A stretch of DNA of 18,249 nucleotides from Lachnospiraceae bacterium (GTDB taxonomy: Bacteria > Bacillota > Clostridia > Lachnospirales > Lachnospiraceae), in assembly GCA_021204285.1 (NCBI GenBank), contig JAJPZP010000243.1:1-18249 (forward strand), read 5' to 3'. Position numbers and translations under genes: made by a program. Below the pieces are notes generated by a model. The model worked only from the letters and a program-made list of their open reading frames with translations, searched no databases and had not been told where the DNA came from. Below, piece by piece: positions 1 through 17,945 of this stretch (its first letter is position 1; each line of letters opens with the position of its first letter).

Positions 1-775
1 ATCGCACTCTGTGTAGAACACGCTGTTCGCCTAATAAAACAGAAGACTGCATTTCGGGTTTGTCATCTCCGTGCAGAGCTGGCCATAGAATTTATCGTAC
101 AGTTCTTTGTTCGGAATGATGATATTGGAATTCTGCATCCCGGCCAGGTTGAAGGTCTTGCTCGGCGCCGTGCAGATCACGCTGTGCTGCGCGAACTCCT
201 CGCTCAGCGTCGCGAAGACCTGATGGTGATATCCCGGCATGATGATATCAAAATGAATCTCATCCGAGCAGATCACCACATCGTTGTCGATGCAGATACG
301 TCCCATCCGCAGCAGCTCCTCCTGCGTCCAGACGCGGCTCGATGGATTGTGCGGGCTGCACAGAATAAACAGCTTCGTATCCGGCAGCTTCGCCTTCGCC
401 TCAAAGTCCTCCCAGTCGACCTCGTAGCGCCCGTCCTTATTGATCAGCGAGCAGGAGACCCGTTTGCGGTGGTTCTCCGAGATCGCCGCGTACATCGGAT
501 AGTAAGACGGCGTGAGCAGCATGACGCCCTCGCCCGGCTCCGTGTAGGCCTTAACCGCCGTGAAGAAAGCCTTGATCACGCCCGGCGTGCGGACAATCCA
601 CTCTCTTTTAATATCCCAGTTGTGGCGTCTCTTCATCCAGCCGCAGATTGCCTCGTAGTACGCATCGGTCGGATCACCGTAGCCCAGCACATAGGTGTCG
701 ATATATTTTTTCAGTCCCTCCCGGATCTCCGGCGCGTTCTCAAACTCCATGTCCGCCACGGAGAAGGGGACGATG
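1..775 (-). pseudogene. PatB/MalY-type aminotransferase fragment, headless and with an in-frame stop
   Basis: The fragment resembles fold-type I PLP enzymes of the MalY/PatB class (cystathionine beta-lyase-like aminotransferases). It contains IVPFSVADMEF, GYGDPTDAYYEAICGWMKRRHNWDI, LLTPSYYPMY, LCSPHNPSSRVW, the PLP aspartate in ICSDEIHFDI and the Schiff-base lysine in TAPSKTFNLAGMQ. A normal family member is about 390 residues. Here the first 30-40 residues are missing, and homology starts abruptly near 774, where it abuts a UxaA fragment in another frame. After NPKCSLLFY an in-frame TAG (31-33) interrupts the gene. The same frame continues to the window edge as ANSVFYTECD, which looks like family sequence, so this appears to be a nonsense mutation rather than a frameshift. 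No ribosome binding site or plausible start precedes the conserved part. I judge it non-functional. A sequencing or assembly error could explain the stop, but not easily the junction as well. Confidence 0.8.
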
Positions 776-922
776 GAAGAAGCCAACTGTGCCCTGTACC
801 GCGCGGCAGATCGCCTGCGCCACATCCGTTGCGCAGATCACGCTCGGAATCACGGCCACCAGATTTCTGCTCCCGACCTTTCCGTTCGGCCGGACATATC
901 CCTGAAATGTTATGCTCATCAT
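773..922 (-). pseudogene. UxaA-family dehydratase large subunit, truncated after about 50 codons
   Basis: The reading frame from ATG 922 gives MMSITFQGYVRPNGKVGSRN, then LVAVIPSVICATDVAQAICR and AVQGTVGFFH. This is the start of the UxaA C-terminal (altronate/galactarate dehydratase) domain, in which GY.RP.G..G.RN is diagnostic. Full-length proteins are about 380 residues. Homology stops at GFFH (about 775), and the next bases belong to the middle of a PatB gene in a different frame; this frame itself ends at 740. The start overlaps the stop of the small UxaA subunit in an ATGATGA arrangement with GGGGGGAG as ribosome binding site, so the two subunits were once translationally coupled. The cysteines that would hold the catalytic cluster in the large subunit are absent, so an active dehydratase cannot be made from this locus. 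Confidence 0.8.
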
Positions 923-1230
923 TCTCCCCCCTTCAAATCGCCGCGGCCGCGCATGGCGACCATATTATGTACGTGGACGTATTCCCCGGTCTTAATATCC
1001 GCGCTCGCCGCGCCGATGCTCTCCCCATACTTGTAGATCGGATCGCCCTTTTTCAGATCACAGACCGCGATCTTGTGGCCATAGGGAACGTCGCCGATCA
1101 CCCTTACTTTTGTCATGTTTCCCTGCCTGTCACGGATCTCTACCTCCGTTCCGTCGCAGATCCCGTTGGCAAAGATCGTCGCCACATTGTCCTTGTCATC
1201 CACCTTCAGCGCCAGTTTCAGTTCTTCCAT
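919..1230 (-). CDS. uxaA: UxaA family small subunit (SAF domain), altronate dehydratase-like
   Basis: This 103-residue protein matches the N-terminal SAF domain of altronate/galactarate dehydratases, which in many Firmicutes is a separate polypeptide. Visible motifs are DNVATI (14-19), DVPYGHKIAV (47-56), KYGESIG (67-73) and GEYVHVHN (82-89), with conserved His52, His86 and His88. In the family it pairs with the large UxaA subunit to dehydrate aldonic acids to 2-keto-3-deoxy acids in the cytoplasm. It lies 31 bp after larA, with an AGAGGA-type ribosome binding site, so larA and this gene are probably co-transcribed. Its normal partner, immediately downstream, is truncated, so this subunit may be orphaned unless another large subunit exists elsewhere in the genome. 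Length and sequence look intact. Confidence 0.85.
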   Translation of the reverse strand: MEELKLALKVDDKDNVATIFANGICDGTEVEIRDRQGNMTKVRVIGDVPYGHKIAVCDLKKGDPIYKYGESIGAASADIKTGEYVHVHNMVAMRGRGDLKGGE

Positions 1231-1261
1231 ATTCCTCTTCCTTTCTGCTTCCTGAATCTGT

Positions 1262-2542
1262 TTATTCGGGCTTCACCGCGAGCACGGATACGCCGTCCGG
1301 GATAACCACCACACTGGCGTCCGCCCCCTTCAGCTGATAAGCCATCTCGAGCGCCTCGTCTACCGTGGACGCATGAAGCATGTTCGCCTTCTCGACCGTC
1401 TCCCTGTCGAGATATGTCGTCACAAGGATCACCTTGTGTTTTTTCAGAATTCTGGCATAAATCTGCGCGCACCACTGCTCGCTGATCGTCTCCTTTGGTG
1501 GAATCTTTGACAAATACTCGTCGATCTCATCCACCGTGCCCATGACAATCAGTTTCTCGAAGAATTTCCCTCCCATACCTTCTACGCAGGACGCCGACAT
1601 GATAATCACGCCGTCCTCCCCTGCGCAGGCCTCCGCCGTGGCCACTGCCTTCGGAGACTGATAGAGATTCTGATCAAGCGGATAGCCGCCATTTGAGGTC
1701 ACAACGATATCTCCGGTAACCGGCTCGCACTGCGCCAGCTTCCGCACAAAGGCTACGCCCGCCTCATGCGCCTGCTCCAGATCTCCGGCAAAGGCACCGA
1801 TGATCTTTTTCTCACTGTTCTGCGCCACATTGAGAATAAACTGTACATTCACACGCCTTGCAGCCGTGATCATATCGAGATGAATTGGATTTTTGTCCAG
1901 AACGCCCGTCACCGCCCAGGGACTGGCGATGGCCTTGTAGGAATGATTTTCATTGACGGTTGCTGCGTTGCAGACGCCCGGCAGAATACTCTTGCGTCCC
2001 CCTGAAAATCCCGCGAAGAAATGCGGCTCGATAAAGCCCTCCGTGACAAGCAGATCGCAGTCTGCGGCAAGCTTATTGACATGGAACTCCGCCCCGGAAG
2101 GAAGCGTTCCCAGAAAGGTGAATTCCTCCGGTTCGAAGGCATGATTCACCGCAATCCTTTCGTGATCTACGATCGCATCGCCAAACATGGAACGCATCTC
2201 CTCCTCCGTCGTCGCACGGTGAAGACCGGTCGCCACGAGAATCGTGATCTGGGCATCCGGATTTCCCTTCCGGATTTCATCCAGCAGAATCGGCAACGTG
2301 ATTTTGCTCGGCACCGCACGCGTATGATCGCTCGTGATCAGCGTAACCCGCCGCTTTCCCTCCGCCAGCTCGTGAAGCGGCTTTGATCCGATCGGATGCT
2401 CCAGCGCCTCGCGCACCAGCTCCTCTTCTCCCTTCCCCGGGTCATAAGAATCCCCCCTGGCGGTAATCACTGTCTTCAGATTTTCTTCCGAAATGTGAAG
2501 ATCCATATGTTCCTTATAATATGGAATCGGAATGGTCTTCAT
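1262..2542 (-). CDS. larA: Nickel-pincer-dependent hydroxyacid racemase/epimerase, LarA family
   Basis: This 426-residue cytoplasmic enzyme is of the LarA superfamily, which interconverts C2 epimers of 2-hydroxyacids with the nickel-pincer nucleotide (NPN) cofactor. Residues known in Lactiplantibacillus plantarum LarA fall at the same numbers here: Asp72 and Arg75 in TSDHTR, His108 in ATGLHR, His174 and Lys184 in EPHFFAGFSGGRKSILPG, and His200 in NENH. Lys184 links to the cofactor, His200 helps hold the nickel, and His108/His174 are the acid-base pair, so the gene looks fully active. Characterised homologues include lactate and malate racemases and an aldonate 2-epimerase. With a UxaA subunit downstream and an acid-sugar dehydratase and TRAP importer upstream, a sugar-acid epimerase is more likely than a lactate racemase; this is inference. 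The start at 2542 follows GAGGAGG. No larB or larE is in the window, only a larC-like gene at 9904. Confidence 0.93.
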   Translation of the reverse strand: MKTIPIPYYKEHMDLHISEENLKTVITARGDSYDPGKGEEELVREALEHPIGSKPLHELAEGKRRVTLITSDHTRAVPSKITLPILLDEIRKGNPDAQITILVATGLHRATTEEEMRSMFGDAIVDHERIAVNHAFEPEEFTFLGTLPSGAEFHVNKLAADCDLLVTEGFIEPHFFAGFSGGRKSILPGVCNAATVNENHSYKAIASPWAVTGVLDKNPIHLDMITAARRVNVQFILNVAQNSEKKIIGAFAGDLEQAHEAGVAFVRKLAQCEPVTGDIVVTSNGGYPLDQNLYQSPKAVATAEACAGEDGVIIMSASCVEGMGGKFFEKLIVMGTVDEIDEYLSKIPPKETISEQWCAQIYARILKKHKVILVTTYLDRETVEKANMLHASTVDEALEMAYQLKGADASVVVIPDGVSVLAVKPE

Positions 2543-2567
2543 ATACAGTACCTCCTCTTAAATATAT

Positions 2568-2582
2568 TGTATACATTATACA
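2568..2582. promoter_or_regulatory. Putative operator TGTAT-N5-ATACA upstream of larA
   Basis: The dyad TGTATACATTATACA sits 26 bp upstream of the larA start. Sixteen bases (TGTATACATTATACAC) match 15 of 16 in the same + strand orientation at the larC2 promoter (9854-9869), and the TGTAT-N5-ATACA form recurs at the gntR promoter (9093-9107). On the gene strand it contains a TATAAT (2580-2575) that could itself be a -10 box. The arrangement fits a repressor site, probably for a GntR/FCD regulator. The choice of regulator is inference. Confidence 0.6.
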
Positions 2583-2594
2583 CCACGCACCATA

Positions 2595-2623
2595 AACATA
2601 CATCTTTTTTTACGAATTGTCAA
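2595..2623 (-). promoter_or_regulatory. Candidate larA promoter
   Basis: On the minus strand TTGACA (2623-2618) is followed after 17 bp by TATGTT (2600-2595). Transcription would start near 2588, just upstream of the TGTAT-N5-ATACA dyad, so a repressor bound there would block elongation or the initiating complex. An alternative -10, TATAAT, lies inside the dyad at 2580-2575 but has no good -35 at the right distance. Confidence 0.55.
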
Positions 2624-2642
2624 CCCACGGTATGAATTTTTC

Positions 2643-2691
2643 CGTAAAAATGACGAGGAGACAAAACATATTGACACCGGGCATTTTTACG
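2643..2691. repeat. Spaced perfect inverted repeat CGTAAAAATG / CATTTTTACG
   Basis: A perfect 10-bp inverted repeat (2643-2652 and 2682-2691) with a 29-bp spacer lies between the larA promoter and the gntR terminator. A third TTTTTACG copy is at 2607-2614. The spacing suits a pair of regulator half-sites rather than an RNA hairpin. No regulator is assigned. Confidence 0.4.
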
Positions 2692-2694
2692 TAC

Positions 2695-2730
2695 AGAAAA
2701 GGCGCCGCATATAAATACGACGCCTTTTCT
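2695..2730 (-). terminator. Intrinsic terminator after the first gntR gene
   Basis: Perfect 10-bp arms AGAAAAGGCG and CGCCTTTTCT (2695-2704 and 2721-2730) begin 2 bp after the gntR stop. The stem ends in a CCTTTTCT tract on the minus strand. It separates the regulator transcript from the larA unit. The stem is nearly symmetrical, so weak function in the other direction is possible. Confidence 0.7.
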
Positions 2731-2732
2731 GC

Positions 2733-3473
2733 TCAGTTCAAATCCACTTTATAATCCACCATGTCGGAGTAGGCTTTTTTACAGGCTTCAAAATCTTTTT
2801 CCCGGATCGAGCGGCAGATCACACGATGAAGATCGTCATCCATGTTTCCGCTCCGTGCCTGCCTCTGCCAGTAAGCAACTCTCTTATCCACCAGCATTTC
2901 CATGTACTTGTAAATCAGCTCCCGCGCCATCTCAAAAGCGTAAACAAACAGATCATTATGCGACAGCTTGCAGACCATGTGATGGAACTCCACGTCCTCA
3001 CTTACCAGCTCGTTAAAAACATTCTTATCCTTATTTTGCAGATATCGGAGTTTCGCATTCTCAAAACGTTGGCATTGCTGCTCCAGCTCCACAATCTCCT
3101 GTTCTTCTGCCCGGTCAATCGCCAGACGGACAGAATCAATCTCAATCGACTTCCGGAATTCCAGTACTTTGTCCAGAAGCTCCGGTTTAAGATAGAAATC
3201 GCTGACACGCTCAATATAATTCTCAAAGGAAAATTCCTTCACATAAGTGCCGTCTCCCACCTTGCTTTCCAGAAGACCCATACCAATCAGCCGCTGCATT
3301 GCCATACGCACCGTCAAACGGTTCACCCCAAAGATCTCCGATAATTCCGTCTCCGGCGGTATCTTTTCCCCCGGTTTCCAAACGCGGTTCTTGATTGCCT
3401 CCCGCATCGCTTCGAACACCTGCTCACTGACCGGCATCCGCTTCACTTTCATCTCTTCCAACTGTAACGCCAT
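2733..3473 (-). CDS. GntR-family transcriptional regulator, FadR/FCD subfamily
   Basis: This 246-residue regulator has an N-terminal winged helix-turn-helix (about 12-80; SEQVFEAMREAIKNRVWKPG, PPETELSEIFGVNRLTVRMA, GLLESKVGDGTYV) and a C-terminal all-helical FCD ligand domain (about 95-235). Candidate metal/ligand residues are the Asp and His of SEDVEFHHMV, the histidine of DDDLHRVI, and the arginine in LEFRKSIE. FCD regulators usually sense carboxylic or sugar acids and repress neighbouring catabolic genes, which fits the TRAP/dehydratase and larA units on either side. It has its own promoter (3506-3534) and terminator (2695-2730), so it can be expressed apart from the TRAP operon. The start at 3473 follows GGAAGGA. 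The ligand is not known. Confidence 0.9.
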   Translation of the reverse strand: MALQLEEMKVKRMPVSEQVFEAMREAIKNRVWKPGEKIPPETELSEIFGVNRLTVRMAMQRLIGMGLLESKVGDGTYVKEFSFENYIERVSDFYLKPELLDKVLEFRKSIEIDSVRLAIDRAEEQEIVELEQQCQRFENAKLRYLQNKDKNVFNELVSEDVEFHHMVCKLSHNDLFVYAFEMARELIYKYMEMLVDKRVAYWQRQARSGNMDDDLHRVICRSIREKDFEACKKAYSDMVDYKVDLN

Positions 3474-3505
3474 GTCCTTCCCTTTCTGTCAAAAACCCAA
3501 GTATT

Positions 3506-3534
3506 ATTATATGGTTGGAATCGGTTGTTTGCAA
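3506..3534 (-). promoter_or_regulatory. Promoter of the first gntR gene
   Basis: On the minus strand TTGCAA (3534-3529), a 17-bp spacer and TATAAT (3511-3506) form a good sigma-A promoter. It lies about 33 bp from the gntR start, in the gap after dctM. Confidence 0.7.
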
Positions 3535-3540
3535 GTTTTT

Positions 3541-3566
3541 CCTGAGAGATGAGACACTTTCTCAGG
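3541..3566 (-). other. Stem-loop directly after dctM
   Basis: The arms CCTGAGA (3541-3547) and TCTCAGG (3560-3566) form a 7-bp stem 2 bp beyond the dctM stop. On the minus strand it is followed by AAAAAC, not a T tract, so it is a poor intrinsic terminator. It could protect the 3' end of the operon message. Confidence 0.4.
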
Positions 3567-3568
3567 CA

Positions 3569-4849
3569 TCAGCCTCCGAGAAGGTGCATCGGCAGATAAA
3601 TGATCCCCGGAATGAATGCTACCGCGAAAAATGCAGCAAACAATGCAATCAGGAATGGTACCATCGGTTTCACGATCTTATCCAATGGAATTCCCGTCAT
3701 GGACGAAGTTACAAACAGGTTTGTCGCCACCGGTGGCGTACAGAATGCGATCGACAGAGCCAGAACCATGATAATACCAAACTGGATTGCGTCGATCCCA
3801 TAGGGCTCCAGTACATTGAGCAGGATCGGTCCCAGAATGACGATCATTGGTGTTGTCTGCACAAACATACCGGCAATAAACAGGATCAGGAAAACCAGCA
3901 GCATCACCACAATCTTGCTGTCAAAGTTACTCGTAAAGAATTTGGTGATCGCGCGAGTCACGCCCATGTAAGCAAAAATCTGTCCCAGCGCGGATGCGGG
4001 AGCAAGGGTGAGCAACATACCTCCCACAAAGGTGCTGGTCGACATCAGTTCCTTAAACAATGCCGGGATCTTCAGTTCCCGATAGTAGAGCATACCGATC
4101 ACTACGCCGTACACACAGGCCACCACAGACGCTTCCGTCACGGTGAAAATACCGCCATAAATACCGCCCAGGATAATCACCGGCATCAACAGCGCCGGCC
4201 AGCCGTCCTTCAAAGAGTGTGCCACTGCTCTCGCACTGAACTTCTTTGTCCCGACAATGTGATGTTTTTTGCAGTAAACATAATTTACCGCCATCAGAAG
4301 AACACCAACCAGGATTGCCGGTCCGATTCCCGCGACAAACAGGTCACCGATCGACACATTCATCGCAACGCCATACACGACCATCGGGAAGCTCGGCGGC
4401 ACGATCACGCCCAGGGAACCCGCCACGGTGATCAATGCGACCGCGTAATATTTATTATAACCTGCGCGCACCATCTCCGGGAGCATGATACCGCCAATCG
4501 CAGCGACCGTCGCTGGCGCCGAACCGGAAACCGCCCCGAAGAACATGCACGCCAATATCGCTACCATACCAAGGTTGCCGGTCACCCTTCCGATCAGGCT
4601 GTCCGCAATCGCCACCAGTCTCTTGGAGAGTCCGCCCGCGTTCATCAGACTGCCTGCCAGGATGAAAAACGGAAGCGCAATCATCGTGTAGGTAGCCACA
4701 CCTGTATACATAATGGAAGCGATAAAAGCCGGCGTCGTGATCCCGTTCATGGCAATCAGCACAAAAATCGGCAGCAACAGACACACACCGATCGGCACGC
4801 CGATCAAAAAGAACGCAAACATCAGGACAAACATTATCGTCAATGCCAT
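3569..4849 (-). CDS. dctM: TRAP transporter large permease, DctM subunit
   Basis: This 426-residue, very hydrophobic protein has roughly 11-12 membrane segments and is of the DctM/SiaM type. It forms the ion-coupled transport channel of a tripartite ATP-independent periplasmic transporter in the cytoplasmic membrane. Family signatures are visible: the N-terminal LIGVPIGVCLLLP, the PFFILAGSLMNAGGLSKRLV stretch, FFGAVSGSAPATVAAIGGIM, GSLGVIVPPSFPMVVYG, and the late MFVQTTPMIVILGPILL. The length is normal for the family. Its ATG directly follows the dctQ stop codon (TAA-ATG) with GGGAG inside dctQ as ribosome binding site, so the two permease subunits are translationally coupled. The operon context points to uptake of a sugar acid or other hydroxycarboxylate, but the permease does not reveal the substrate. 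Confidence 0.95.
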   Translation of the reverse strand: MALTIMFVLMFAFFLIGVPIGVCLLLPIFVLIAMNGITTPAFIASIMYTGVATYTMIALPFFILAGSLMNAGGLSKRLVAIADSLIGRVTGNLGMVAILACMFFGAVSGSAPATVAAIGGIMLPEMVRAGYNKYYAVALITVAGSLGVIVPPSFPMVVYGVAMNVSIGDLFVAGIGPAILVGVLLMAVNYVYCKKHHIVGTKKFSARAVAHSLKDGWPALLMPVIILGGIYGGIFTVTEASVVACVYGVVIGMLYYRELKIPALFKELMSTSTFVGGMLLTLAPASALGQIFAYMGVTRAITKFFTSNFDSKIVVMLLVFLILFIAGMFVQTTPMIVILGPILLNVLEPYGIDAIQFGIIMVLALSIAFCTPPVATNLFVTSSMTGIPLDKIVKPMVPFLIALFAAFFAVAFIPGIIYLPMHLLGG

Positions 4850-5395
4850 TTAAATCACTCCCTTCTCTTTTGCCTCTCTCTCACAAGCCTCCAGATCGAT
4901 CGTCGGATCCGAATAACCCATATTTTCCTCCGTCTCATGCCACAAACGCCAGATATCCTGTATGATACGGACCCCTCTCAGAAGCAGGATAATCGGAATC
5001 CAGATGTAAATGTAGGTTTTCGGAATACGCATCAGATCCGTCACGCTGTCGCCCAGATTCTCAATCACCGTATACAGCGGCCCCTGGATATAAATGCAGA
5101 ATACCAGGAAAATCACATCGCTGAGAATCAGCAGTGCTTTCCGCACTTTATAAGGGACAAGCTGCTGTACGATTTCGATAGAAACATGCTTTCTGTTTGT
5201 AACCGCAGAAGCGATACCACAGTAAATCATCGGCACAAAAAGCAGGGTGCCCAGCTCCTCCGTCCAGGAGAAGGAATGGTTCAGCACATAACGGCTGAAC
5301 ACCTGCACCGCCAGCAAAATGCCGATAATGGCAAACAGGATTGCGGCCACGTAAGTTTCAAAATTGTTCAGATAGTATTTTACTTTATCACTCAT
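4850..5395 (-). CDS. dctQ: TRAP transporter small permease, DctQ subunit
   Basis: This 181-residue membrane protein has four predicted helices, as expected for DctQ. The signature region is VFSRYVLNHSFSWTEELGTLLFVPMIYCGIASAV, followed by RKHVSIEIV. It pairs with DctM and is needed for transport, probably docking the substrate-loaded binding protein. A terminator hairpin separates it from dctP, so its expression is likely set below that of the binding protein. It abuts dctM with no gap. Its ribosome binding site (AAGGCGGG) is a poor match compared with its neighbours, consistent with modest translation. Confidence 0.9.
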   Translation of the reverse strand: MSDKVKYYLNNFETYVAAILFAIIGILLAVQVFSRYVLNHSFSWTEELGTLLFVPMIYCGIASAVTNRKHVSIEIVQQLVPYKVRKALLILSDVIFLVFCIYIQGPLYTVIENLGDSVTDLMRIPKTYIYIWIPIILLLRGVRIIQDIWRLWHETEENMGYSDPTIDLEACEREAKEKGVI

Positions 5396-5414
5396 ACAAT
5401 TTCCCGCCTTTTTT

Positions 5415-5453
5415 CAAAAAATGCCCCGGTCGTCCGAAAGTTTCCGGGGCATT
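5415..5453 (-). terminator. Intra-operon intrinsic terminator between dctP and dctQ
   Basis: Perfect 10-bp GC-rich arms AATGCCCCGG and CCGGGGCATT (5420-5429 and 5444-5453) are followed on the minus strand by a run of Ts. The hairpin lies in the 78-bp gap between dctP and dctQ. Partial read-through would give more binding protein than permease, a common need in binding-protein-dependent transporters. It would also stabilise the 3' end of a dctP message. Confidence 0.8.
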
Positions 5454-5473
5454 CATCCTGTCTCGATTAATAT

Positions 5474-6658
5474 TCAATAAGTTTCGACGTAGTCCATCAG
5501 CGCATCCCAGCGATCCTGACCCATCGTCTCAGCCTCGCTGTCATATACTTCTTTTTCCATCAGCGTTACAAAGGCTTCTCTCTGCTCATCGGTGAGATAG
5601 GTAATCTGCATGCCGCTCGCTTCGCACTCCTCCTGGTAGTAATCCTGAAGTTCCGTCATTCTCTCATATCCTGCTTCCTCAGCCTCCTCAATCAGGCGCT
5701 CAAAGATCTCCTGATCCTCCTCAGAAAGGCTCTCCCAGAAGGACTCGCTGATCACCTGTGCGGACATCTGATAGAGATGATCCGTCACAGTGCAATAGTC
5801 CTGCACCTCCATCAGCTTATCCACAACCAGATTCTGGAACGGATTCTCCTCGCCGTCCACAACACCCTGCTGCAGAGAGGTATAAAGCTCGCTATAGGTC
5901 ACGTTTGTGACGGAAGCCCCCATCGCCTCAAAAGCCGACACAATCAGCGGGTCAGTCAGAACTCTCATTTTCAGGCCTTCCAGATCCTCCGGCGAGGTGA
6001 TCTCATGCTTGTTGTTTGTCATCTCACGGAAGCCAAAGGTTGCAATTCCCTTGAACAGAACGCCTTCGATGTCCTCCTCGGCCCGTGCGCACATCTCATC
6101 TTTCAGTCCCGCATCCAGAATGCTCTTCACTTCCTCCTCGTCGGAAAACACGAACGGTACATTCATCTCGGAGAACGCATCCGTATAGCTGCTGAAATTT
6201 GCCGTCGAGAGGCAGTTCATCTCGAACGCGCCGCTCTTCAGGCCGGAAACAATGTCATCCGCCGTCTTGGCCAGCGTGCCGTCCGCATACAGTTCCAGAC
6301 GATAACGTCCCTCCGTCTCGATCGGAAGATTGACCGCCAGGTAAAGCACGATGGCCGGGATAGAACCGCCATTGGTCTCAAAGGTACCGGTGGAGGTGTT
6401 GTTCGTATAGCGGACAACTGTCGCATCCGGATATTTCTCTGCCGCCCAGTCGCAGGCTTCCAGCGCGTCAATACCGGTATAGATGTCGTCATCTGTCGCC
6501 TCAGCCTCATCACTGCTCTCCTCCGCGGTGTCAGATGCTTCCGTCTCCGTGCTGTCCGAGCTGGAACTGGAGCTGGAACTGGAGCTGGAACCGCAACCCG
6601 CCATCAGGGATCCTGCCATGCACACAACAAGTATCAGGCTTAGAACTTTCTTCTTCAT
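5474..6658 (-). CDS. dctP: TRAP transporter substrate-binding lipoprotein, DctP family
   Basis: This 394-residue solute-binding protein has a lipoprotein signal peptide (hydrophobic core VLSLILVVCMAGS, lipobox LMAGC with Cys22). After the anchor there is a run of 11 serines (24-34) and an acidic linker to about residue 58, so the protein is longer than typical 330-residue DctP proteins. The binding domain shows the family pattern: SPEDLEGLKMRVLTDPLIVSAFEAMGASV (with the conserved substrate carboxylate-binding arginine), then YSELYTSLQQGVVDGEENPFQNLV. It captures a carboxylated substrate outside the membrane and hands it to DctQM. It begins 20 bp after the dehydratase stop, with AAAGGAGAG as ribosome binding site, so it belongs to the dehydratase operon. 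The exact ligand cannot be read from the sequence. Confidence 0.93.
   Translation of the reverse strand: MKKKVLSLILVVCMAGSLMAGCGSSSSSSSSSSSDSTETEASDTAEESSDEAEATDDDIYTGIDALEACDWAAEKYPDATVVRYTNNTSTGTFETNGGSIPAIVLYLAVNLPIETEGRYRLELYADGTLAKTADDIVSGLKSGAFEMNCLSTANFSSYTDAFSEMNVPFVFSDEEEVKSILDAGLKDEMCARAEEDIEGVLFKGIATFGFREMTNNKHEITSPEDLEGLKMRVLTDPLIVSAFEAMGASVTNVTYSELYTSLQQGVVDGEENPFQNLVVDKLMEVQDYCTVTDHLYQMSAQVISESFWESLSEEDQEIFERLIEEAEEAGYERMTELQDYYQEECEASGMQITYLTDEQREAFVTLMEKEVYDSEAETMGQDRWDALMDYVETY
6558..6591. repeat. Short tandem repeat, 12-bp unit, coding the serine run of dctP
   Basis: The unit GAGCTGGAACTG occurs twice in full and once in part. It encodes the polyserine linker after the lipid anchor on the minus strand. 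Slippage would change linker length in steps of four residues without shifting the frame. Confidence 0.8.
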
Positions 6659-6678
6659 TTTTTCTCTCCTTTTTTATT

Positions 6679-7887
6679 TTACTTTATCGTTACCTTTACA
6701 GCCTTTTCCATGACTTCCGGGCGAAGTTCCTGTCCGATACCAGGCTTGTCCGGGACTTCATAATAGCCATTTTCCGGCTGATAATCATAAAGACAGGTGT
6801 TCCTGCAATCCGGATGCAGCGCCCATCCATGGTGCTCATGGATCAGGAAGTTCGGAAGCACTGCTTCAATCTGCAAAGCAGCTGCTTTCGAAATCGGGCT
6901 TCCGCACACGTGAATCTGCGCCGCGCAGTCGTAAGTGTTCGCCATATCGCAGATCTTCTTCGCCTCTGTGAGGCCACCGCACAGGCAGATATCCGGCTGC
7001 ACGACCTGCAGGGAGCGATCCTCCAGGAATTCGCGGAACCCGGTCCTGCCGTAGATACGCTCACCGCTGGCAATCGGCATCTTAAGGCTTCTGTGAACCT
7101 CCAGCATATTCTTCGGATTCAGCGGATGTACCGGCTCTTCATAATAGAAGATATTCAGCTCCTCCAGCCTCTGTCCCAGCTGCACGGAAGAGATCGTATC
7201 CGTATAGGAGTGTAGTTCGATGATAATATCCATATCTTTTCCGCCGGTCTCCCGGATCGCAGCCACCCGGTCATAAGCCGTGCTCAGCTCCCTGTCGGAA
7301 AGTACGCCTCTGGTCTTCCACTCGCCTTTGCCGTCCGGTTCCTGCCTGCTCAGCGCAAGCGGGTCAACCTTCACACAAGTATATCCCTCTTCCATTACCT
7401 TCTTCGTTACCGTTGCGTAGTCCTCCGGCCGGATCATCATATCGCGTTCCGGTACCACGTGTTCCGGTCCCCAGCCAAACTGAATCTGACTCGCATACGC
7501 TCTCAGCTTTTCGTTCGTCTTGCCTCCCATCAACTGGTAGACAGGCAAGCCCAGCGCCTTTCCCTTGATATCCCAAAGCGCAATATCAATCGCACTCATA
7601 CCGGCGCTGATGATCGTCCCTCCTCCGAGGCCCCAGAATGTCGTCCGGTACAGTTTCTCCCAGATCTTCTCATTCTTCATAGGATCCTCACCGATGATCA
7701 CCTCCGCGAAATCCTGGATCATGCTGAAACCTGCGCGATATCCGCGGCCGTAGGCTACTCCGACTTCCCCAAAGCCGCTGATTCCCTCATCTGTATTCAC
7801 CTTCACGATCACCGGATGCCAGGAATTGCGGCCCTTACAGGGATCTCCGCTGTCGATGATCATACAGTCGACACTTTGAATCTTCAT
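6679..7887 (-). CDS. Enolase-superfamily acid-sugar dehydratase (mannonate/galactonate dehydratase-like)
   Basis: This 402-residue protein has the mandelate-racemase/muconate-lactonising-enzyme fold. Numbered from the ATG at 7887, the Mg-binding acids are Glu224 (IIELHS), Glu250 (YYEEP) and Glu276 (SGERIYGR), evenly 26 residues apart. The two catalytic histidines are His226, two residues after the first ligand, and His326 (AAQIHVCGSP). They are 100 residues apart, as in known mannonate and galactonate dehydratases. Glutamate instead of aspartate as first metal ligand is unusual for the dehydratase subgroup. The likely reaction is removal of water from an aldonic acid to give a 2-keto-3-deoxy acid in the cytoplasm. 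It is the first gene of the operon with the TRAP importer, so the imported acid is probably its substrate. A GTG at 7890 precedes the ATG, but GGGGGG spacing favours 7887. The exact sugar acid is unknown. Confidence 0.88.
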   Translation of the reverse strand: MKIQSVDCMIIDSGDPCKGRNSWHPVIVKVNTDEGISGFGEVGVAYGRGYRAGFSMIQDFAEVIIGEDPMKNEKIWEKLYRTTFWGLGGGTIISAGMSAIDIALWDIKGKALGLPVYQLMGGKTNEKLRAYASQIQFGWGPEHVVPERDMMIRPEDYATVTKKVMEEGYTCVKVDPLALSRQEPDGKGEWKTRGVLSDRELSTAYDRVAAIRETGGKDMDIIIELHSYTDTISSVQLGQRLEELNIFYYEEPVHPLNPKNMLEVHRSLKMPIASGERIYGRTGFREFLEDRSLQVVQPDICLCGGLTEAKKICDMANTYDCAAQIHVCGSPISKAAALQIEAVLPNFLIHEHHGWALHPDCRNTCLYDYQPENGYYEVPDKPGIGQELRPEVMEKAVKVTIK

Positions 7888-7915
7888 CACTTTCCCCCCC
7901 TTTTGCTATTTGGTT

Positions 7916-7938
7916 AGTTGTTAATTTGTTAATTTGTT
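7916..7938. repeat. Direct repeats in the 5' leader of the dehydratase-TRAP operon
   Basis: GTTAATTT is repeated head to tail with an 8-bp period, flanked by related GTT and TTAGTT copies. The block lies about 6-28 bp downstream of the predicted start site of the minus-strand promoter, a typical position for a repressor site. No regulator is assigned. Confidence 0.4.
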
Positions 7939-7950
7939 CGCCTGATTCGT

Positions 7951-7979
7951 ATTATAGAAGCCGGAAAGAAATTTGTCAA
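7951..7979 (-). promoter_or_regulatory. Promoter of the dehydratase-TRAP operon
   Basis: On the minus strand TTGACA (7979-7974), a 17-bp spacer and TATAAT (7956-7951) make a perfect consensus sigma-A promoter. Its -35 is 17 bp from the -35 of the divergent hydroxyacid dehydrogenase promoter, so the two units share one control region. A promoter this strong implies tight repression when the substrate is absent. Confidence 0.85.
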
Positions 7980-7996
7980 CAAAAAGTGAAAAAAAT

Positions 7997-8024
7997 TTGA
8001 AATTTCTGTGAAATATGATAAAAT
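7997..8024 (+). promoter_or_regulatory. Candidate promoter of the 2-hydroxyacid dehydrogenase gene
   Basis: TTGAAA (7997-8002) and TAAAAT (8019-8024) are 16 bp apart, and a GGAGG ribosome binding site follows at 8031. This is a moderate match, divergent from the strong minus-strand promoter. An in-frame ATG at 8008 falls between these boxes, so it cannot be the true start if this promoter is used. Confidence 0.5.
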
Positions 8025-8046
8025 CACTGTGGAGGTAAAGAAGATA

Positions 8047-9030
8047 ATGAAAAAACCAGTCGTGTTCTGCACGGAAAATAAATATATTATTTCTGATAAA
8101 ACGGAGGCTTACCTGAAAGAACATGTAGAACTCATCCGGGCAGAAGAAAGACCAACGAAAGAAGCACTTATGAGACAGATTGGAGACGCAGACGGGCTGA
8201 TCTGTATGGGACCAAATTATCCTGTTGACAGCTGTTTTCTTAACGCCGCCCCCAGACTTCGCGTAATCAGCACCACTTCCGTCGGATACGACACTTTCAA
8301 CCTGGCGGAGATGAAACAGCGCGGCGTGATCGGCCTGCACACACCGGATGTGCTCAATAGTTCCGTAGCGGATCACGGAATTGCGTTGATGTTCGCTGTC
8401 AGCCGCCGTCTGACAGAAATGGACAAGCTCGTCCGCCAGGGAAAGTGGATTGATACCCCCTTCTGGGAAATGTATGGCTGTGAACTGTCCGGTAAAAAGC
8501 TCGGCATCATCGGCATGGGCCGCATCGGGGAGACGCTGGCACGCAAAGTAATTGCCGGCTTCGATATGGAAGTATCCTACTACAACCGCTCGCGAAAAAC
8601 CGGCACAGAGGCTGAGCTGGGCGTCCATTATCTCCCGCTCGACAAGCTGCTGCAGGACTCCGACTATATCGTCACGCTCGTCCCGCTCACAGAAGGAACT
8701 TACCATATGATCAGCCACCGCGAATTTTCCCTGATGAAACCCGGTGCGATCTTCATTAATATCGCCAGAGGTCCGGTTGTGGACGAGGCCGCACTCGTCG
8801 AAGCGCTTGAAAATCATGAGATCTACGGAGCCGGTCTGGATGGCTTTGAAAAAGAACATTTCGGGGAAGGCAATCCCCTGACGAAACTTCCGAACACTGT
8901 TCTCACGCCCCATATTGCTTCCGCCACAACGGAATGCCGTGAAAGAATGGGACAGCTCGCCGCCCGCGGGCTTGTCGAATTTTTTGAAGGGAAAACGCCT
9001 TCCAATCTGATCCCGTATTTCCGGAAGTAA
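8047..9030 (+). CDS. D-isomer-specific 2-hydroxyacid dehydrogenase
   Basis: This 327-residue cytoplasmic oxidoreductase interconverts a 2-keto acid and a D-2-hydroxy acid with NAD(P)H. It has the two-domain family layout: a catalytic domain (about 1-100 and 290-327) around a Rossmann domain with GMGRIG (156-161). The catalytic triad is Arg241 (NIARG), Glu270 (GFEKE) and His289 (TPHIASAT). It looks closest to the glyoxylate/hydroxypyruvate/2-ketogluconate reductase group, but the usual DVFEKEP is altered to DGFEKEH, followed by GEGNPL. The start at 8047 is chosen because GGAGG lies 11 bp upstream and the earlier ATG at 8008 overlaps the promoter. Its gene is divergent from the dehydratase operon, so it may reduce or oxidise an intermediate of the same sugar-acid pathway. 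The substrate is not determinable here. Confidence 0.9.
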   Translation: MKKPVVFCTENKYIISDKTEAYLKEHVELIRAEERPTKEALMRQIGDADGLICMGPNYPVDSCFLNAAPRLRVISTTSVGYDTFNLAEMKQRGVIGLHTPDVLNSSVADHGIALMFAVSRRLTEMDKLVRQGKWIDTPFWEMYGCELSGKKLGIIGMGRIGETLARKVIAGFDMEVSYYNRSRKTGTEAELGVHYLPLDKLLQDSDYIVTLVPLTEGTYHMISHREFSLMKPGAIFINIARGPVVDEAALVEALENHEIYGAGLDGFEKEHFGEGNPLTKLPNTVLTPHIASATTECRERMGQLAARGLVEFFEGKTPSNLIPYFRK

Positions 9031-9055
9031 TGGGACACAGAACCGGAAAAAATGT

Positions 9056-9125
9056 TTGACTATTTCAAAATAAATGTTATGATAAATACACATGTATCAT
9101 GCATACACGATACATGTGTATTTAT
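9056..9125 (+). promoter_or_regulatory. Promoter and autoregulatory operator of the second gntR gene
   Basis: TTGACT (9056-9061), a 16-bp spacer and TATGAT (9078-9083) form the promoter. Overlapping the -10 and extending downstream is a perfect 17-bp inverted repeat (9082-9098 and 9109-9125; left arm ATAAATACACATGTATC) with a 10-bp centre. Inside it are TGTATCATGCATACA (9093-9107) and the overlapping TGCATACACGATACA (9100-9114), both of the TGTAT-N5-ATACA type found at the larA and larC2 promoters. Position and symmetry strongly suggest autorepression. The hairpin would also form in RNA, but it has no T tract suited to termination. Confidence 0.75.
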
Positions 9126-9141
9126 TTTTCAGGAGAAAAAA

Positions 9142-9807
9142 ATGGCTCAGAAAATTATCAGCACCATCAGCGGTCAGGTCTATGAGCTGCTGAAACAGGA
9201 TATCTGTGAGGGGAAATATGCCCCTGGACAATGGCTACAGGAAAAAGAACTCGCGGAACAGTTTTCCGTCAGCAGAAGCCCGGTTCGCGAGGCTTTAAAG
9301 CAGCTCTCCGACGACGGCCTGGTCGTCAACGTGCCGAACAAAGGTGTCTTTGTCAGGAAATTCACGGAGAAAGATATTCTGGAAATCTATGACCTGCGGG
9401 TCATGATGGAAAGCTACGCGATCCAGAAAATCACAGAGCTCATGAATGAAAATATCAAAACGCAGCTCGCTGCCTGTCTGGAAAGGCTGGAAGAAGCTTA
9501 TCGGAAAAAAGATCATTCGCTCTATACAAAGGAAGATATGAAGCTTCACGATCAGATCATCAAGCTCAGCGGGAATGATCTGCTCGCGCTCACCTACGAG
9601 CGCGTCCATATGATGATCCACCAGTTCCGTGCTTACTCTCTCATGGATCAGACCCGCTTCGACGAATCCATCGCGGAACACCGCAGTCTGGTCAATTATA
9701 TTCTGGCCGGAAAAGCACAGCTGGCGATCGAAACCAACCGGAAGCATCTCCTGCTCGCAGCAGAACGGGTCAATACGAACCTGAAAAAAGCATATCCTTC
9801 CGGGTAA
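9142..9807 (+). CDS. GntR-family transcriptional regulator, FCD subfamily (second regulator)
   Basis: This 221-residue regulator has an N-terminal winged helix (about 8-75: ISGQVYELLKQDICEGKYAPG, LQEKELAEQFSVSRSPVREA, GLVVNVPNKGVFVRKFT) and a helical FCD domain (about 80-215). Likely metal/ligand residues include the Asp and His of DMKLHDQIIKLSGND and the histidine of IAEHRSLV. The start at 9142 is preferred over an in-frame ATG at 9052, which lies upstream of the promoter. AGGAG is 6 bp before 9142. Its promoter contains a large palindrome, so it probably represses itself. The same dyad at larA and larC2 makes it the best candidate regulator for a nickel-pincer regulon. It differs clearly from the GntR protein at 2733-3473, so they are not recent duplicates. 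Confidence 0.9.
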   Translation: MAQKIISTISGQVYELLKQDICEGKYAPGQWLQEKELAEQFSVSRSPVREALKQLSDDGLVVNVPNKGVFVRKFTEKDILEIYDLRVMMESYAIQKITELMNENIKTQLAACLERLEEAYRKKDHSLYTKEDMKLHDQIIKLSGNDLLALTYERVHMMIHQFRAYSLMDQTRFDESIAEHRSLVNYILAGKAQLAIETNRKHLLLAAERVNTNLKKAYPSG

Positions 9808-9824
9808 ATTCTCATCCGCTGCTC

Positions 9825-9869
9825 TTGACAGAGCGTTTGTTTCCGCTATATAATGTATACATCATACAC
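9825..9869 (+). promoter_or_regulatory. Promoter and operator of the larC2-ECF operon
   Basis: TTGACA (9825-9830), an 18-bp spacer and TATAAT (9849-9854) give a near-consensus promoter. The dyad TGTATACATCATACA (9854-9868) starts at the last base of the -10 and covers the transcription start. The 16-base stretch to 9869 matches the larA site at 15 of 16 positions. A repressor bound here would block RNA polymerase. Confidence 0.72.
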
Positions 9870-9903: not shown

Positions 9904-10407
9904 ATGAAACTATACAGCAAAAAGGGAATCTTATTTCTCGTTCAACTTGACCATCTGTGTGGCGAAATTCTCGGTGATGTGATAGAATCATTCTATCAGG
10001 CCGGAGCTAAGAATGTTCAGATTTTAAACACGATCACAAAAAAGAACCGCCCCGGTTATGTCGTCCTGATCGACGGCAATGAAGCTTCCTCAGAGGCCAT
10101 CGAGGCTGTCATCGTGGAGGAATGTGGCTCTTCCGGCTGGCACAGGATTGATACCTGCCACCGCCATACGGACGTGTTTTATCTTCAGAAAACCGTTCAC
10201 ATCGAACTCGAAGACGGCACTTTTGATTTTCAGATAAAGGGAAAGCAGATCGCCGACAGGGAGCAAGAAATCCGCCCGGAATATGACAGCTGTGATCTCC
10301 TCCGAAAGGAATTGCTGAAATATGGGAAAAAAGTCAGCATCCGACAGTTGCAGTTTCTTCTGGCACAGGCTTTCCGCCAGGAAGGAGAAAGCCGGGTTCT
10401 GCTGTAA
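9904..10407 (+). CDS. Stand-alone LarC C-terminal domain (LarC2-like), nickel-pincer cofactor maturation
   Basis: This 167-residue protein matches the C-terminal (LarC2) part of LarC, the CTP-dependent nickel insertase that finishes the NPN cofactor. Diagnostic stretches are LVQLDHLCGEILGDVIESFYQAGA (12-35, matching TNIDDMTGE.LG in LarC), KKNRPGYVV (46-54), the strand ELEDGTFDFQIKG (101-113) and RPEYDSCDLL (124-133). The roughly 270-residue N-terminal LarC1 domain is absent: only a promoter lies in the 96 bp upstream, and the gene has its own ribosome binding site (AGGAGAG). In L. plantarum LarC1 and LarC2 are joined by ribosomal frameshifting, whereas here LarC2 is independently promoted. 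It could act in trans with a LarC1 encoded elsewhere or be a divergent paralogue. The shared operator with larA supports a link to nickel-pincer enzymes. Sequence divergence is considerable. Confidence 0.78.
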   Translation: MKLYSKKGILFLVQLDHLCGEILGDVIESFYQAGAKNVQILNTITKKNRPGYVVLIDGNEASSEAIEAVIVEECGSSGWHRIDTCHRHTDVFYLQKTVHIELEDGTFDFQIKGKQIADREQEIRPEYDSCDLLRKELLKYGKKVSIRQLQFLLAQAFRQEGESRVLL

Positions 10408-10434: not shown

Positions 10435-10998
10435 ATGAACAAAACCAATAAACTGACTCTCGCCGCCATGTTTTTTGCTCTGGGACTCATCCTTCCGTTT
10501 TTCATCGGACAGATTCCCGCCATCGGCAAGATGCTTCTACCTATGCACATTCCTGTTTTATTCTGTGGTCTCATCGTCGGCTGGCAGTACGGACTGCTGG
10601 TTGGCTTTTTCCTGCCGCTGACGCGCAGCGTCCTGTTTTGGATGCCCGCTCTCTTCCCGAACGCAATTGCCATGGCTTTTGAGCTGGCGACTTACGGGCT
10701 GGTTATCGGCTTCCTCTACAGCCATTCCAGATGGCAGTGCGTAAAGGCACTGTACCGCTGCCTGATTGCCGCCATGCTTGCCGGACGTCTGGTATGGGGT
10801 GTCGCTGAGATCCTGTTGCTCGGCATCAGCGGCAGCGCCTTTACCTGGGAGCTTTTTCTGGCAGGGGCTTTCCTGAACGCTATTCCCGGCATCATCCTGC
10901 AGCTGATCCTGATCCCGGCTGTCATGGTATCCCTGAACCGGGCAAAAATTGTGCCTTTCAAGAAGGAGGCAGGCTGGAACACCTCTCAGATTGTCTGA
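10435..10998 (+). CDS. ECF transporter S-component, substrate unknown
   Basis: This 187-residue membrane protein has five or six hydrophobic segments. It resembles the S-component (substrate-binding subunit) family of energy-coupling-factor vitamin and metal transporters: N-terminal KLTLAAMFFALGLILPFFIG, then KMLLPMHIPVLFCGLIVGWQYGLLVGFFLPLTRSVLF and NAIAMAFELATYGLVIGFLYS. No EcfA or EcfT genes are nearby, so it would use a shared module, the usual situation in Firmicutes. It lies 27 bp after the larC2-like gene with its own AAGGAGA and is followed by a terminator, so the two form an operon. I infer it supplies something for nickel-pincer cofactor synthesis, such as a nicotinate-type precursor or nickel, but sequence alone does not show this. 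Confidence 0.85.
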   Translation: MNKTNKLTLAAMFFALGLILPFFIGQIPAIGKMLLPMHIPVLFCGLIVGWQYGLLVGFFLPLTRSVLFWMPALFPNAIAMAFELATYGLVIGFLYSHSRWQCVKALYRCLIAAMLAGRLVWGVAEILLLGISGSAFTWELFLAGAFLNAIPGIILQLILIPAVMVSLNRAKIVPFKKEAGWNTSQIV

Positions 10999-12074: not shown

Positions 12075-12944
12075 ATGTACAGAAAACCTTTTGTCATCGC
12101 AGAGGCCGGATGCAACCATATGGGCCGCATGGAGGTGGCCAGAGATCTGATAGAGACAGCGGCTCATTTCTGCAAAGCTGATGCAATCAAATTTCAGAAA
12201 CGCTGTCCGAAAGAGCTTCTGACTCCGGAGCAGTACAACGCTCCGCATCCAAATCCCGCGAATTCCTACGGTGATACCTATGGCGCTCACCGGGAGTTTC
12301 TGGAATTCACGGTCGAGCAGCATGCGCAGCTCAAAGAATGGTGCGAGGAGGCCGGCATCATTTATTCCACGTCTGTCTGGGATATGACCAGCGCCAAAGA
12401 GATCGCCTCTCTGAATCCCGTATTCATCAAGATACCGTCAGCCTGCAACACGCACTTTGAGATGCTGCAGTGGCTGTGCGACCATTACGAAGGTGAGATT
12501 CAGCTCTCCTTCGGCATGACAAGCCATGAGGAGGAGGAACAGATTGTGGAACTGTTCGAGAAGAACGGACGCGCAAAGGATCTGGTTCTGTTCAACTGTA
12601 CTTCCGGCTATCCGGTTCCCTTCAAGGATGTATGCCTGCTGGAGATCAGCCGTATGCGCGAGGCTTATGAGGGGCGCGTGAAGGCAATCGGCTTCTCCGG
12701 ACATCACCTGGGCATCGCCGTAGACGTCGCCGCATATACGCTCGGCGCGGATGTGATTGAGCGCCACTATACGCTCGACAGGACATGGAAAGGTACCGAT
12801 CATGCAGCCTCCCTGGAGCCGGACGGCATCCGCAAACTTGTCCGGAACCTGAATGCGGTTCACGATGCGCTGACTTACAAAGAGATGGAAATTCTTCCGA
12901 TCGAACAGGTACAGAGAGAAAAACTGAAATACAGGAAACATTAA
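12075..12944 (+). CDS. neuB: Nonulosonic acid synthase, NeuB family without SAF domain
   Basis: This 289-residue TIM-barrel enzyme condenses phosphoenolpyruvate with a six-carbon sugar to make a nine-carbon 2-keto-3-deoxy acid. Family motifs are EAGCNHMG (10-17), AIKFQKR (37-43), KIPSACNTHFEML (119-131), NCTSGYPVPF (174-183) and IERHYTLDRTWKGTDHAASLEP (228-249). Metal-binding histidines correspond to His210 in SGHHLG and His231 in ERHYTLD, 21 residues apart as in Neisseria NeuB (His215/His236). The usual C-terminal SAF (antifreeze-like) domain of about 60 residues, which completes the active site of the partner monomer, is missing; the protein ends after the barrel. SDHT is replaced by SGHH. 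It starts a plus-strand operon with the CBS-cupin and NeuA-phosphatase genes. Whether the acceptor is ManNAc, ManNAc-6-P or mannose-6-P is not determined. Confidence 0.9.
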   Translation: MYRKPFVIAEAGCNHMGRMEVARDLIETAAHFCKADAIKFQKRCPKELLTPEQYNAPHPNPANSYGDTYGAHREFLEFTVEQHAQLKEWCEEAGIIYSTSVWDMTSAKEIASLNPVFIKIPSACNTHFEMLQWLCDHYEGEIQLSFGMTSHEEEEQIVELFEKNGRAKDLVLFNCTSGYPVPFKDVCLLEISRMREAYEGRVKAIGFSGHHLGIAVDVAAYTLGADVIERHYTLDRTWKGTDHAASLEPDGIRKLVRNLNAVHDALTYKEMEILPIEQVQREKLKYRKH

Positions 12945-12945
12945 G

Positions 12946-13704: not shown

Positions 13705-13708
13705 ACTT

Positions 13709-15952: not shown

Positions 15953-15966
15953 AGATACCTCCATTC

Positions 15967-17523: not shown

Positions 17524-17557
17524 CCCGGCGCTCCTTTCCACCTTTTCATAAAATTTT

Positions 17558-17811: not shown

Positions 17812-17912
17812 TTGCGAAGAAGCCGTGCGACTGGCGGAAACGGGCGGTAAGCCCGCGCAGGAGTACCTGCAGGGAGCACAGCAATACGAAAGAGAAGCCG
17901 ACCGCCTGGGCA
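17812..17912 (+). ncRNA. ZTP (pfl) riboswitch aptamer
   Basis: The conserved pfl-motif parts are present in order: GTGCGACTGGCGGAA (17825-17839), a GC-rich hairpin (CGGGC/GCCCG), a second hairpin (GCAGG/CCTGC), GGGAGCAC (17871-17878), and CCGCCTGGGCA (17902-17912). GTGC (17825-17828) can pair with GCAC (17875-17878) as P1. GGCGG (17833-17837) can pair with CCGCC (17902-17906) as the known pseudoknot. This RNA senses ZMP/ZTP, the purine intermediate that builds up when one-carbon folate is short. It sits just before an IMP cyclohydrolase gene, which consumes the product of ZMP formylation, so function and context agree. An upstream hairpin at 17796-17809 (CATCT/AGATG) is outside the conserved core. 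Confidence 0.92.
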
Positions 17913-17945
17913 CATGTAAGACAGCCATGTGTTCAGGCGGTTTTT
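17901..17945 (+). terminator. Riboswitch expression platform: intrinsic terminator
   Basis: ACCGCCTGGGCACATG (17901-17916) pairs with CATGTGTTCAGGCGGT (17926-17941) through 16 positions, two of them G-U, and is followed by TTTT. Its 5' arm contains the CCGCC that closes the aptamer pseudoknot, so ligand binding and termination are mutually exclusive. High ZMP/ZTP should therefore turn the downstream gene on. Confidence 0.92.

Follow-up and report, generated by a model that had tools for sequence, protein, structure and literature searches.

A predicted GntR/FCD regulon around the larA gene and a stand-alone LarC2-domain gene in a gut Lachnospiraceae bacterium, and its link to an unannotated protein family

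The window analyzed here is a whole stretch of 18,249 nucleotides from a Lachnospiraceae bacterium, corresponding to contig C202 of a 2.19-Mb genome in 272 contigs that is 88.5% complete (G000). Its minus strand carries genes for an enolase-type dehydratase, a TRAP (tripartite ATP-independent periplasmic) transporter, the regulator GntR2, the nickel-pincer racemase LarA, and a small dehydratase subunit. The plus strand carries genes for a D-2-hydroxyacid dehydrogenase, the regulator GntR1, a stand-alone LarC2-domain protein (LarC2'), and an ECF (energy-coupling factor) transporter S component, with a NUDIX protein and a glycan cluster farther on. In this gut bacterium, one repressor appears to act over the nickel-cofactor racemase and the stand-alone cofactor gene.

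LarA (1262 to 2542, minus strand) is a predicted racemase of lactate or another 2-hydroxy acid. It contains the Pfam domains Lar_N and LarA_C, matches 2yjg with E 2e-126, and scores 575.9 bits against NF033504 (cut-off, 460), which makes it lactate-racemase type by score. GntR1 (9142 to 9807, plus strand) combines a GntR helix-turn-helix (E 8e-22) with an FCD domain (E 3e-22), as in FadR/FCD-type regulators. LarC2' (9904 to 10407, plus strand) is a divergent LarC2-domain paralogue, and it is followed by the substrate-binding S component (10435 to 10998, plus strand; PF12822), for which sequence searches up to E 1 returned no solved relative.

An initial annotation of this DNA reported the dyad TGTAT-N5-ATACA at three promoters, and this description holds. 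Exact matches are found at 2568 to 2582, 9093 to 9107, and 9854 to 9868, each at promoter-like sequence; the overlapping variant at 9100 to 9114 is present with one mismatch, and the 16-mers of the larA and larC2 sites differ at one base (15/16 identity). The larA operator (2561 to 2582, minus strand), with the core TAATGTATACAATA in the minus-strand reading and an outer half-site TGTAT, lies just downstream of a promoter-like TTGACA-17-TATGTT (2595 to 2623, minus strand), a pattern match of which one was found and 0.9 are expected in shuffles. The operator region of gntR1 (9084 to 9123, plus strand) is a 40-bp near-palindrome, equal to its own reverse complement at 36 of 40 bases, which contains TCATGCATACACGA (two mismatches to the core) and the exact dyad; it is preceded by the pattern match TTGACT-16-TATGAT (9056 to 9083, plus strand). 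The larC2 operator TAATGTATACATCATACA (9851 to 9868, plus strand) overlaps the −10 box of TTGACA-18-TATAAT (9825 to 9854, plus strand), a pattern match at 12 of 12 bases that would serve larC2-ECF. The promoter-pattern scan of the gntR1/larC2 stretch found four such patterns versus 1.2 expected. All three operators overlap or directly follow a −10-like box, a placement that fits repression.

The sites are confirmed as real and far above chance. Over 1,000 dinucleotide shuffles of the window, which do not allow for the higher A+T content of promoters, the exact dyad occurred 0.002 times on average (maximum, 1). With up to two mismatches, the window has 15 matches against a mean of 4.23 over 200 shuffles. 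Across the genome the exact dyad is present at six places, three of them in the window, while the reversed-pattern control gave none. The three dyads beyond the window (C43:1089, C208:9117, and C266:8780) also fall outside the neighboring listed open reading frames (ORFs) of at least 80 residues, but they lack GTATAC.

Phylogenetic footprinting showed that the operator recurs at the corresponding promoters in three other genomes: G011, from the same genus, and those of the loci L039 and L040. The core best common to these relatives suggests TNATGTATACATNA, a palindrome of even length, accompanied by one more half-site at a distance of 7 bp. With up to two mismatches, this core is present in 10 of 10 target upstream regions and in none of 10 upstream regions of other starts in the four genomes, a comparison that is partly circular since the consensus was derived from the same ten targets. 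The targets were larA and gntR1 of the window, G011, L039, and L040, larC2' of the window, and gntP of L039, which heads a gntP-larC2'-ECF run; L040 larA and gntR1 have one intergenic site in common. The other starts were those of the dehydrogenase, gntR2, enolase, NUDIX, and neuB genes of the window, the enolase, larC2', and gntR2 genes of L040, larC2' of L039, and larC1 of G000. Regions of up to 220 bp were compared, with 55 bp only for G011 gntR1. Shuffles of each target region equaled its score for the core in 0 to 8 of 300 cases. The target promoters share with FadR/FCD regulons an A/T-rich palindrome that contains GT...AC boxes and recurs in relatives.

The register of the palindrome is the point at which the initial annotation needs to be modified. 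The exact N5 dyad is present, and at the gntR1 site it fits better than the compact core; relatives, however, keep the TNATGTATACATNA core instead. The compact core is preferred because L039 gntP, L040, and G011 larA have the dyad with one mismatch each yet keep GTATAC. The dyad then corresponds to one half of the core paired with the additional half-site 7 bp off. According to the accessible part of PMC4494728, the FadR-type consensus consists of TKGT/ACMA boxes with 3 nt (2 in some groups) between GT and AC, and a weaker extra box often lies 7 to 12 nt from the site center. Since FadR-type sites often carry such a box, the dyad can be explained as core plus extra box.

The loose pattern TGTATACAYNATACA was also counted in whole genomes. 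Allowing up to two mismatches, there were 25 matches in G000 (control, 10), 23 in G011 (13), 49 in G428 (30), and 28 in G429 (14); the loose pattern is therefore weakly specific. At zero or one mismatch, G000 has six matches: the three window promoters account for five, and the sixth falls within an ORF of contig C145. The corresponding numbers are three in G011 (one outside the locus), eight in G428 (four outside), and four in G429 (three outside). An extension of the regulon to other lar genes, as had been envisaged, is not supported: the region upstream of G000 larC1 has no site at up to two mismatches, and larB and larE were not found above the cut-off in this genome.

Among the regulon members, the larC2 gene is the unusual one. 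LarC2' has 167 amino acids and matches only positions 249 to 363 of the 375 of PF01969; its LarC2 domain scores 52.6 bits against NF052512 (cut-off, 50), and the copy of G701, a genome of another family, scores 44.6, below the cut-off. It is classified as a LarC2-domain paralogue and not as LarC because the LarC1 part is not in the same protein. Its identity to three full-length LarC proteins is 25, 22, and 24%. The LarC2 domain binds cytidine triphosphate (CTP). LarC2' keeps D16, E21, KKxRP, and PE, which are invariant or nearly so in an alignment of 17 sequences that includes the three full-length LarC proteins, and the Lachnospiraceae-group members carry a GWHRI...HRHT-like stretch. We take LarC2' to be distinct from ordinary LarC and not half of a general LarC. 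One further locus, L042, was dropped since only residues 68 to 109 matched; no lar gene was recognized there by eye among ORFs of at least 150 residues.

LarC2' is linked to an unannotated family of about 595 residues, here called unk590, which bears the name "hypothetical protein" where it is named. The two were found at the same locus in nine of nine loci inspected, and LarB with LarC or LarC1 is also present in seven of these. In L039, L040, and G011, unk590 comes after larA; in the first two, unk590 and LarC2' flank larA and gntR1 on opposite sides, and in G011 they lie on different contigs. In L039, unk590 (636 to 2422, minus strand) is split into two overlapping reading frames. The loci L050 (genome G234) and L051 (G313) have unk590 clustered with LarC2', LarB, and LarC1. 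The L121 locus of G701, whose unk590 is 39% identical, contains in addition to LarC2', LarB, and LarC a PocR-type sensor kinase and a response-regulator-like gene (by eye). On plasmids of Rhizobium tropici, Rhizobium sp. CCGE532, Ciceribacter, and Rhizobium sp. CB3090, the gene order is unk590-LarC2'-LarC-LarE-LarB. A NixA-type nickel transporter is found at the three Rhizobium plasmid loci, with a partial match only in Ciceribacter, and the R. tropici LarE contains an in-frame stop. These plasmid loci represent four of five unk590 records, NZ_CP032687.1 being left out. The same five of 72,556 plasmid records match both unk590 and R. tropici LarC2', the latter query coming from one of them.

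No LarA was detected in several of these settings. None of the five unk590 plasmids is among the 17 plasmid records matching the window LarA, and G234, G313, and G701 gave no match at E 1e-10; these were single-sequence queries, which distant homologues may escape, and for Rhizobium they covered plasmid records.

Two draws of 397 genomes of the family, with agreeing displayed handles, were scanned for the two proteins. LarC2' was found in three (G000, G234, and G313; E 1e-20) and unk590 in two, both among those three. Only one of 398 phylum genomes (G701) carries unk590, which makes it rare. When sequence clusters were compared by the exact size of the longest contig, 12 of 65 LarC2' clusters matched an unk590 cluster, whereas a jittered control yielded 0.3 (at most 4); the unk590 clusters were the best 120 of 859 and the best 120 of 681. 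In strain TWA4, LarC2' and unk590 have consecutive locus tags. The range of unk590 is scattered, comprising Bacillota (Sporomusa, Blautia), Rhizobium, Ciceribacter, and bins named Thermodesulfovibrionales and Thermomicrobiales.

Up to E 5, neither of two unk590 proteins matched any Pfam or NCBIfam family, including Lar_N and LarA_C of the LarA superfamily; the G701 homologue has one weak match to PF02878, below its cut-off. Predicted models of the whole protein and of residues 1 to 334 (predicted local distance difference test [pLDDT], 91 and 80, respectively) were searched against solved folds. In an alignment of 33 sequences that includes R. tropici and G701, N116, R117, K118, K141, N143, K145, H184, E189, D190, H237, D239, D289, K295, D296, and H333 are identical in all; H36 and R131 differ in G701.

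Because unk590 and LarC2' lead LarC, LarE, and LarB on plasmids where LarA was undetected, unk590 is a candidate for a postulated non-LarA nickel-pincer protein. Whether it is a nickel-pincer-dependent enzyme is evenly balanced on this evidence. The same balance applies to the wider proposal that unk590 may be the first identifiable non-LarA nickel-pincer nucleotide enzyme family, with LarC2' as its dedicated cofactor-loading partner. In such an enzyme, ligands to nickel and to the thioamide, as well as general acids or bases, would come from the invariant H184, H237, H333, K118, K141, and K145. Genes for a PatB C-S lyase, RidA, an amino-acid ABC (ATP-binding cassette) transporter, and thioredoxin/DsbA are found upstream of the Rhizobium unk590 operon in L137 and L138. 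In G011, PatB and a CuyA/D-cysteine-desulfhydrase-like gene lie downstream of unk590. The PatB, RidA, and CuyA-like neighbors suggest that the substrate is an amino acid or a sulfonated compound, perhaps racemized at the alpha carbon.

There is, however, a considerable chance, somewhat short of even, that unk590 is not such an enzyme and serves nickel or LarC2' as a carrier, chaperone, or regulator, or that it only has a substrate pathway in common with the lar genes. Its position after larA in L039, L040, and G011 is compatible with this, as LarA is possibly the sole cofactor user there. Against it, unk590 is long and strongly conserved, its many invariant charged and histidine residues are enzyme-like, and it is found with lar biosynthesis genes where LarA was undetected.

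The alternative for LarC2' itself is that it is the missing half of a split LarC, which together with a LarC1 encoded elsewhere would make the ordinary nickel-insertion enzyme. G000 and G011 show LarC2' and a LarC1-only match with no other LarC2 match; their LarC1 genes have no LarC2 domain downstream before a convergent gene, and L050 and L051 have LarC1 and LarC2' in one cluster. The reading frame of the LarC1-only gene of G000 (L043, 4290 to 5500, on contig C55) shifts close to the end before reaching a stop, and a convergent gene lies beyond it. A split LarC is nonetheless unlikely. In a Pfam LarC scan, further LarC or LarC2 sequence was found beside LarC2' in four of six genomes: a full-length LarC in G428 and G429, most of a LarC elsewhere in G234, and a higher-scoring LarC2 elsewhere in G313, in the last two cases in addition to the clustered LarC1 and LarC2'. 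Moreover, LarC2' and LarC stand side by side in L137 to L140 and occur in one cluster in L121, and the low identity of LarC2' to full-length LarC proteins also speaks for a distinct paralogue.

The assignment of the sites to the GntR at 9142 is supported by the gene arrangement in the relatives. GntR1 is 93% identical in G011, 63% in L039, and 58% in L040, and in the last two loci its gene is divergent from larA; in L041, gntR1 heads a gntR1-larC2'-ECF run. A search of GntR1 against plasmids gave 2,563 records, all below 60% identity, which were not used. It is improbable that the TGTATACA sites are bound by GntR2 (2733 to 3473, minus strand) or by some other regulator. GntR2 likewise belongs to the FCD-type GntR proteins; its gene, beside the TRAP and enolase genes, ends at a distance of 190 bp upstream of larA, and L040 carries both types, with a GntR2 that is 59% identical. 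However, the 220 bp preceding gntR2 contain no site in the window or in L040, whereas a site precedes gntR1 in the window, G011, and L039. GntR1 is favored because its gene is divergent from larA in L039 and L040, and because L039 (9.2 kb) has the sites and lists no GntR other than the GntR1 homologue. The palindrome at 9084 to 9123 has 15-bp complementary arms followed by a T-rich stretch, but that it is an RNA hairpin or terminator of the dehydrogenase gene, unrelated to the other two sites, is very improbable, as it lies directly 3' of the promoter-like sequence, was not listed by the terminator scan, and has its core upstream of gntR1 also in G011 and in L039, where no dehydrogenase is listed upstream.

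Computation shows the motif and how it recurs, along with gene order, paralogy, and linkage; for DNA binding, the inducer, and all biochemical roles, we infer the following. GntR1, an FCD-type repressor, would bind TNATGTATACATNA-like operators at its own, the larA, and the larC2'-ECF promoters, and the extra half-site 7 bp away may aid this binding. A short 2-hydroxy acid or sugar-acid-like compound could act as the inducer that relieves repression. The derepressed cell would then make LarA, the dehydratase or lyase subunit that follows it, LarC2', and the ECF uptake component. LarC2' might assist a client protein by loading or remodeling the nickel-pincer nucleotide, and in the wider family unk590 might be that client.

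We assign a probability of about 0.7 to the regulon as a whole. Several observations weigh against it. The footprints come from four genomes, two of them of one genus. At the gntR1 site of the window, the core has GCATAC but the N5 dyad is exact, and there are two mismatches to the core at the L040 larA/gntR1 site and at the gntR1 sites of the window and G011. Near-matches to the operator exist elsewhere in the genomes. L040 larC2' has no operator of its own within 220 bp upstream, which counts against full co-regulation. On the side of the cofactor, unk590 was not found in the G000 assembly, and LarB and LarE were not found above the cut-off in G000 or G011, two fragmented assemblies of one genus, though LarA is present; this absence fits poorly with cofactor synthesis in the window's own genus. 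The claim that larA and larC2 are under one regulator is supported as one FCD-type GntR regulon over larA, gntR, and larC2-ECF. The description of larC2 as part of the cofactor machinery needs to be modified, the gene being a divergent LarC2 paralogue. The GntR/FCD regulon around larA is well supported by the footprinting and ordinary in kind, and the link between LarC2' and unk590 is a valuable lead.

The gene following larA (919 to 1230, minus strand) encodes the small, N-terminal-type subunit of a UxaA/GarD-like dehydratase or lyase made of two parts. Its arrangement is SuyA-like, and its match to NCBIfam TIGR03248 is partial and far below the cut-off; its partner gene comes next in L039 and L040. 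In the window, near 775 (700 to 840, minus strand), the second dehydratase gene passes at about its codon 64 into PatB at about codon 32, and the two share a short CATC there. In G011, the dehydratase and PatB are separated by unk590, the CuyA-like lyase, and, by eye, an antiporter-like gene. The junction is either a deletion or an assembly error. A sulfolactate pathway was considered, as the two-part dehydratase is SuyAB-like by arrangement and the CuyA-like gene after unk590 in G011 scores 303.6 bits against NF052482 (cut-off, 450). It is not claimed, because the plasmid relatives listed carry the annotation UxaA family hydrolase or galactonate dehydratase, and in one case the neighboring genes are of the 2-keto-3-deoxygluconate permease and dihydrodipicolinate-synthase-family kinds.

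Upstream of gntR2 lie the TRAP transporter genes (3569 to 6658, minus strand; DctM, 3569 to 4849; DctQ, 4850 to 5395; DctP, 5474 to 6658) and a gene for an enolase-superfamily sugar-acid dehydratase-like protein (6679 to 7890, minus strand). The D-2-hydroxyacid dehydrogenase gene (8008 to 9030, plus strand) has no operator upstream. Since larA of G011 is divergent from a hydroxyacid dehydrogenase gene, with an operator site between them, the simplest reading of the 7-kb gap in the window is the insertion of a TRAP-enolase-GntR2 block, the alternative being its loss from G011. The plasmid LarA of Sporomusa termitida was rejected as a parallel case for lack of meaningful similarity. On that plasmid (pSPTER, L135), an enolase-type gene, a tripartite tricarboxylate transporter, a LarA-domain gene of this unrelated type, two UxaA genes, and a GntR gene are clustered. 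Farther along the window, genes for NeuB, a cupin/CBS protein, a cytidylyltransferase-HAD fusion, and polysialyltransferase-like and flippase-like proteins (12075 to 17541) probably form a sialic- or legionaminic-type glycan cluster. A ZMP/ZTP riboswitch (RF01750, 48.4 bits; 17817 to 17918, plus strand) is found upstream of an IMP-cyclohydrolase-like frame starting at 17976.

The odd larC2 gene of this regulon led to an unannotated family in nickel-pincer biosynthesis operons without detected LarA, and the question of non-LarA cofactor users becomes directly testable. If the proposed role is true, one GntR switch would govern both cofactor users, LarA and unk590, in the window and its relatives. 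A literature search, mostly without subscription papers, turned up neither a named non-LarA nickel-pincer enzyme nor a GntR-larA-larC2 regulon; the papers surveyed place the nickel-pincer nucleotide in LarA-family racemases and epimerases alone. For LarA, a mass increase of about 450 Da from the cofactor has been reported.

Compared with known systems, the regulon resembles the FadR/FCD GntR regulons described in the accessible part of PMC4494728 in its FCD domain, in its GT/AC palindrome (here 2 nt apart), in the inclusion of its own promoter, and in an extra half-site 7 to 12 nt from the center; carboxylic-acid effectors are common in that group. It differs in its predicted control of a nickel-pincer racemase gene and of a gene for a stand-alone LarC2 paralogue, and was matched to no named orthologous group. 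As with the lar genes of Lactiplantibacillus plantarum, described in the accessible parts of PMC11796402 and PMC11770544, LarA has a cofactor-related lar gene nearby. Unlike that system, the window has GntR/FCD control, a lone divergent LarC2, and dehydratase and transporter genes, and larB, larE, and larC1 are not at the locus. The accessible part of PMC11796402 also states that about 15% of the genomes analyzed have larB, larE, and larC without larA, such that the cofactor may go into non-LarA-like proteins, for which it names no candidate; unk590 resembles these postulated proteins in lying beside lar biosynthesis genes where LarA was undetected. Finally, LarC2' resembles LarC, the CTP-dependent nickel-insertion protein with the LarC2 structures 6bwo, 6bwq, and 6bwr, in matching the LarC2 profile and keeping its conserved residues, and it differs in having no LarC1 domain. 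MK0293 (3c19, 186 residues) is also short and LarC2-like, and LarC2' is closer to it (E 9e-7) than to 6bwo (E 0.004).

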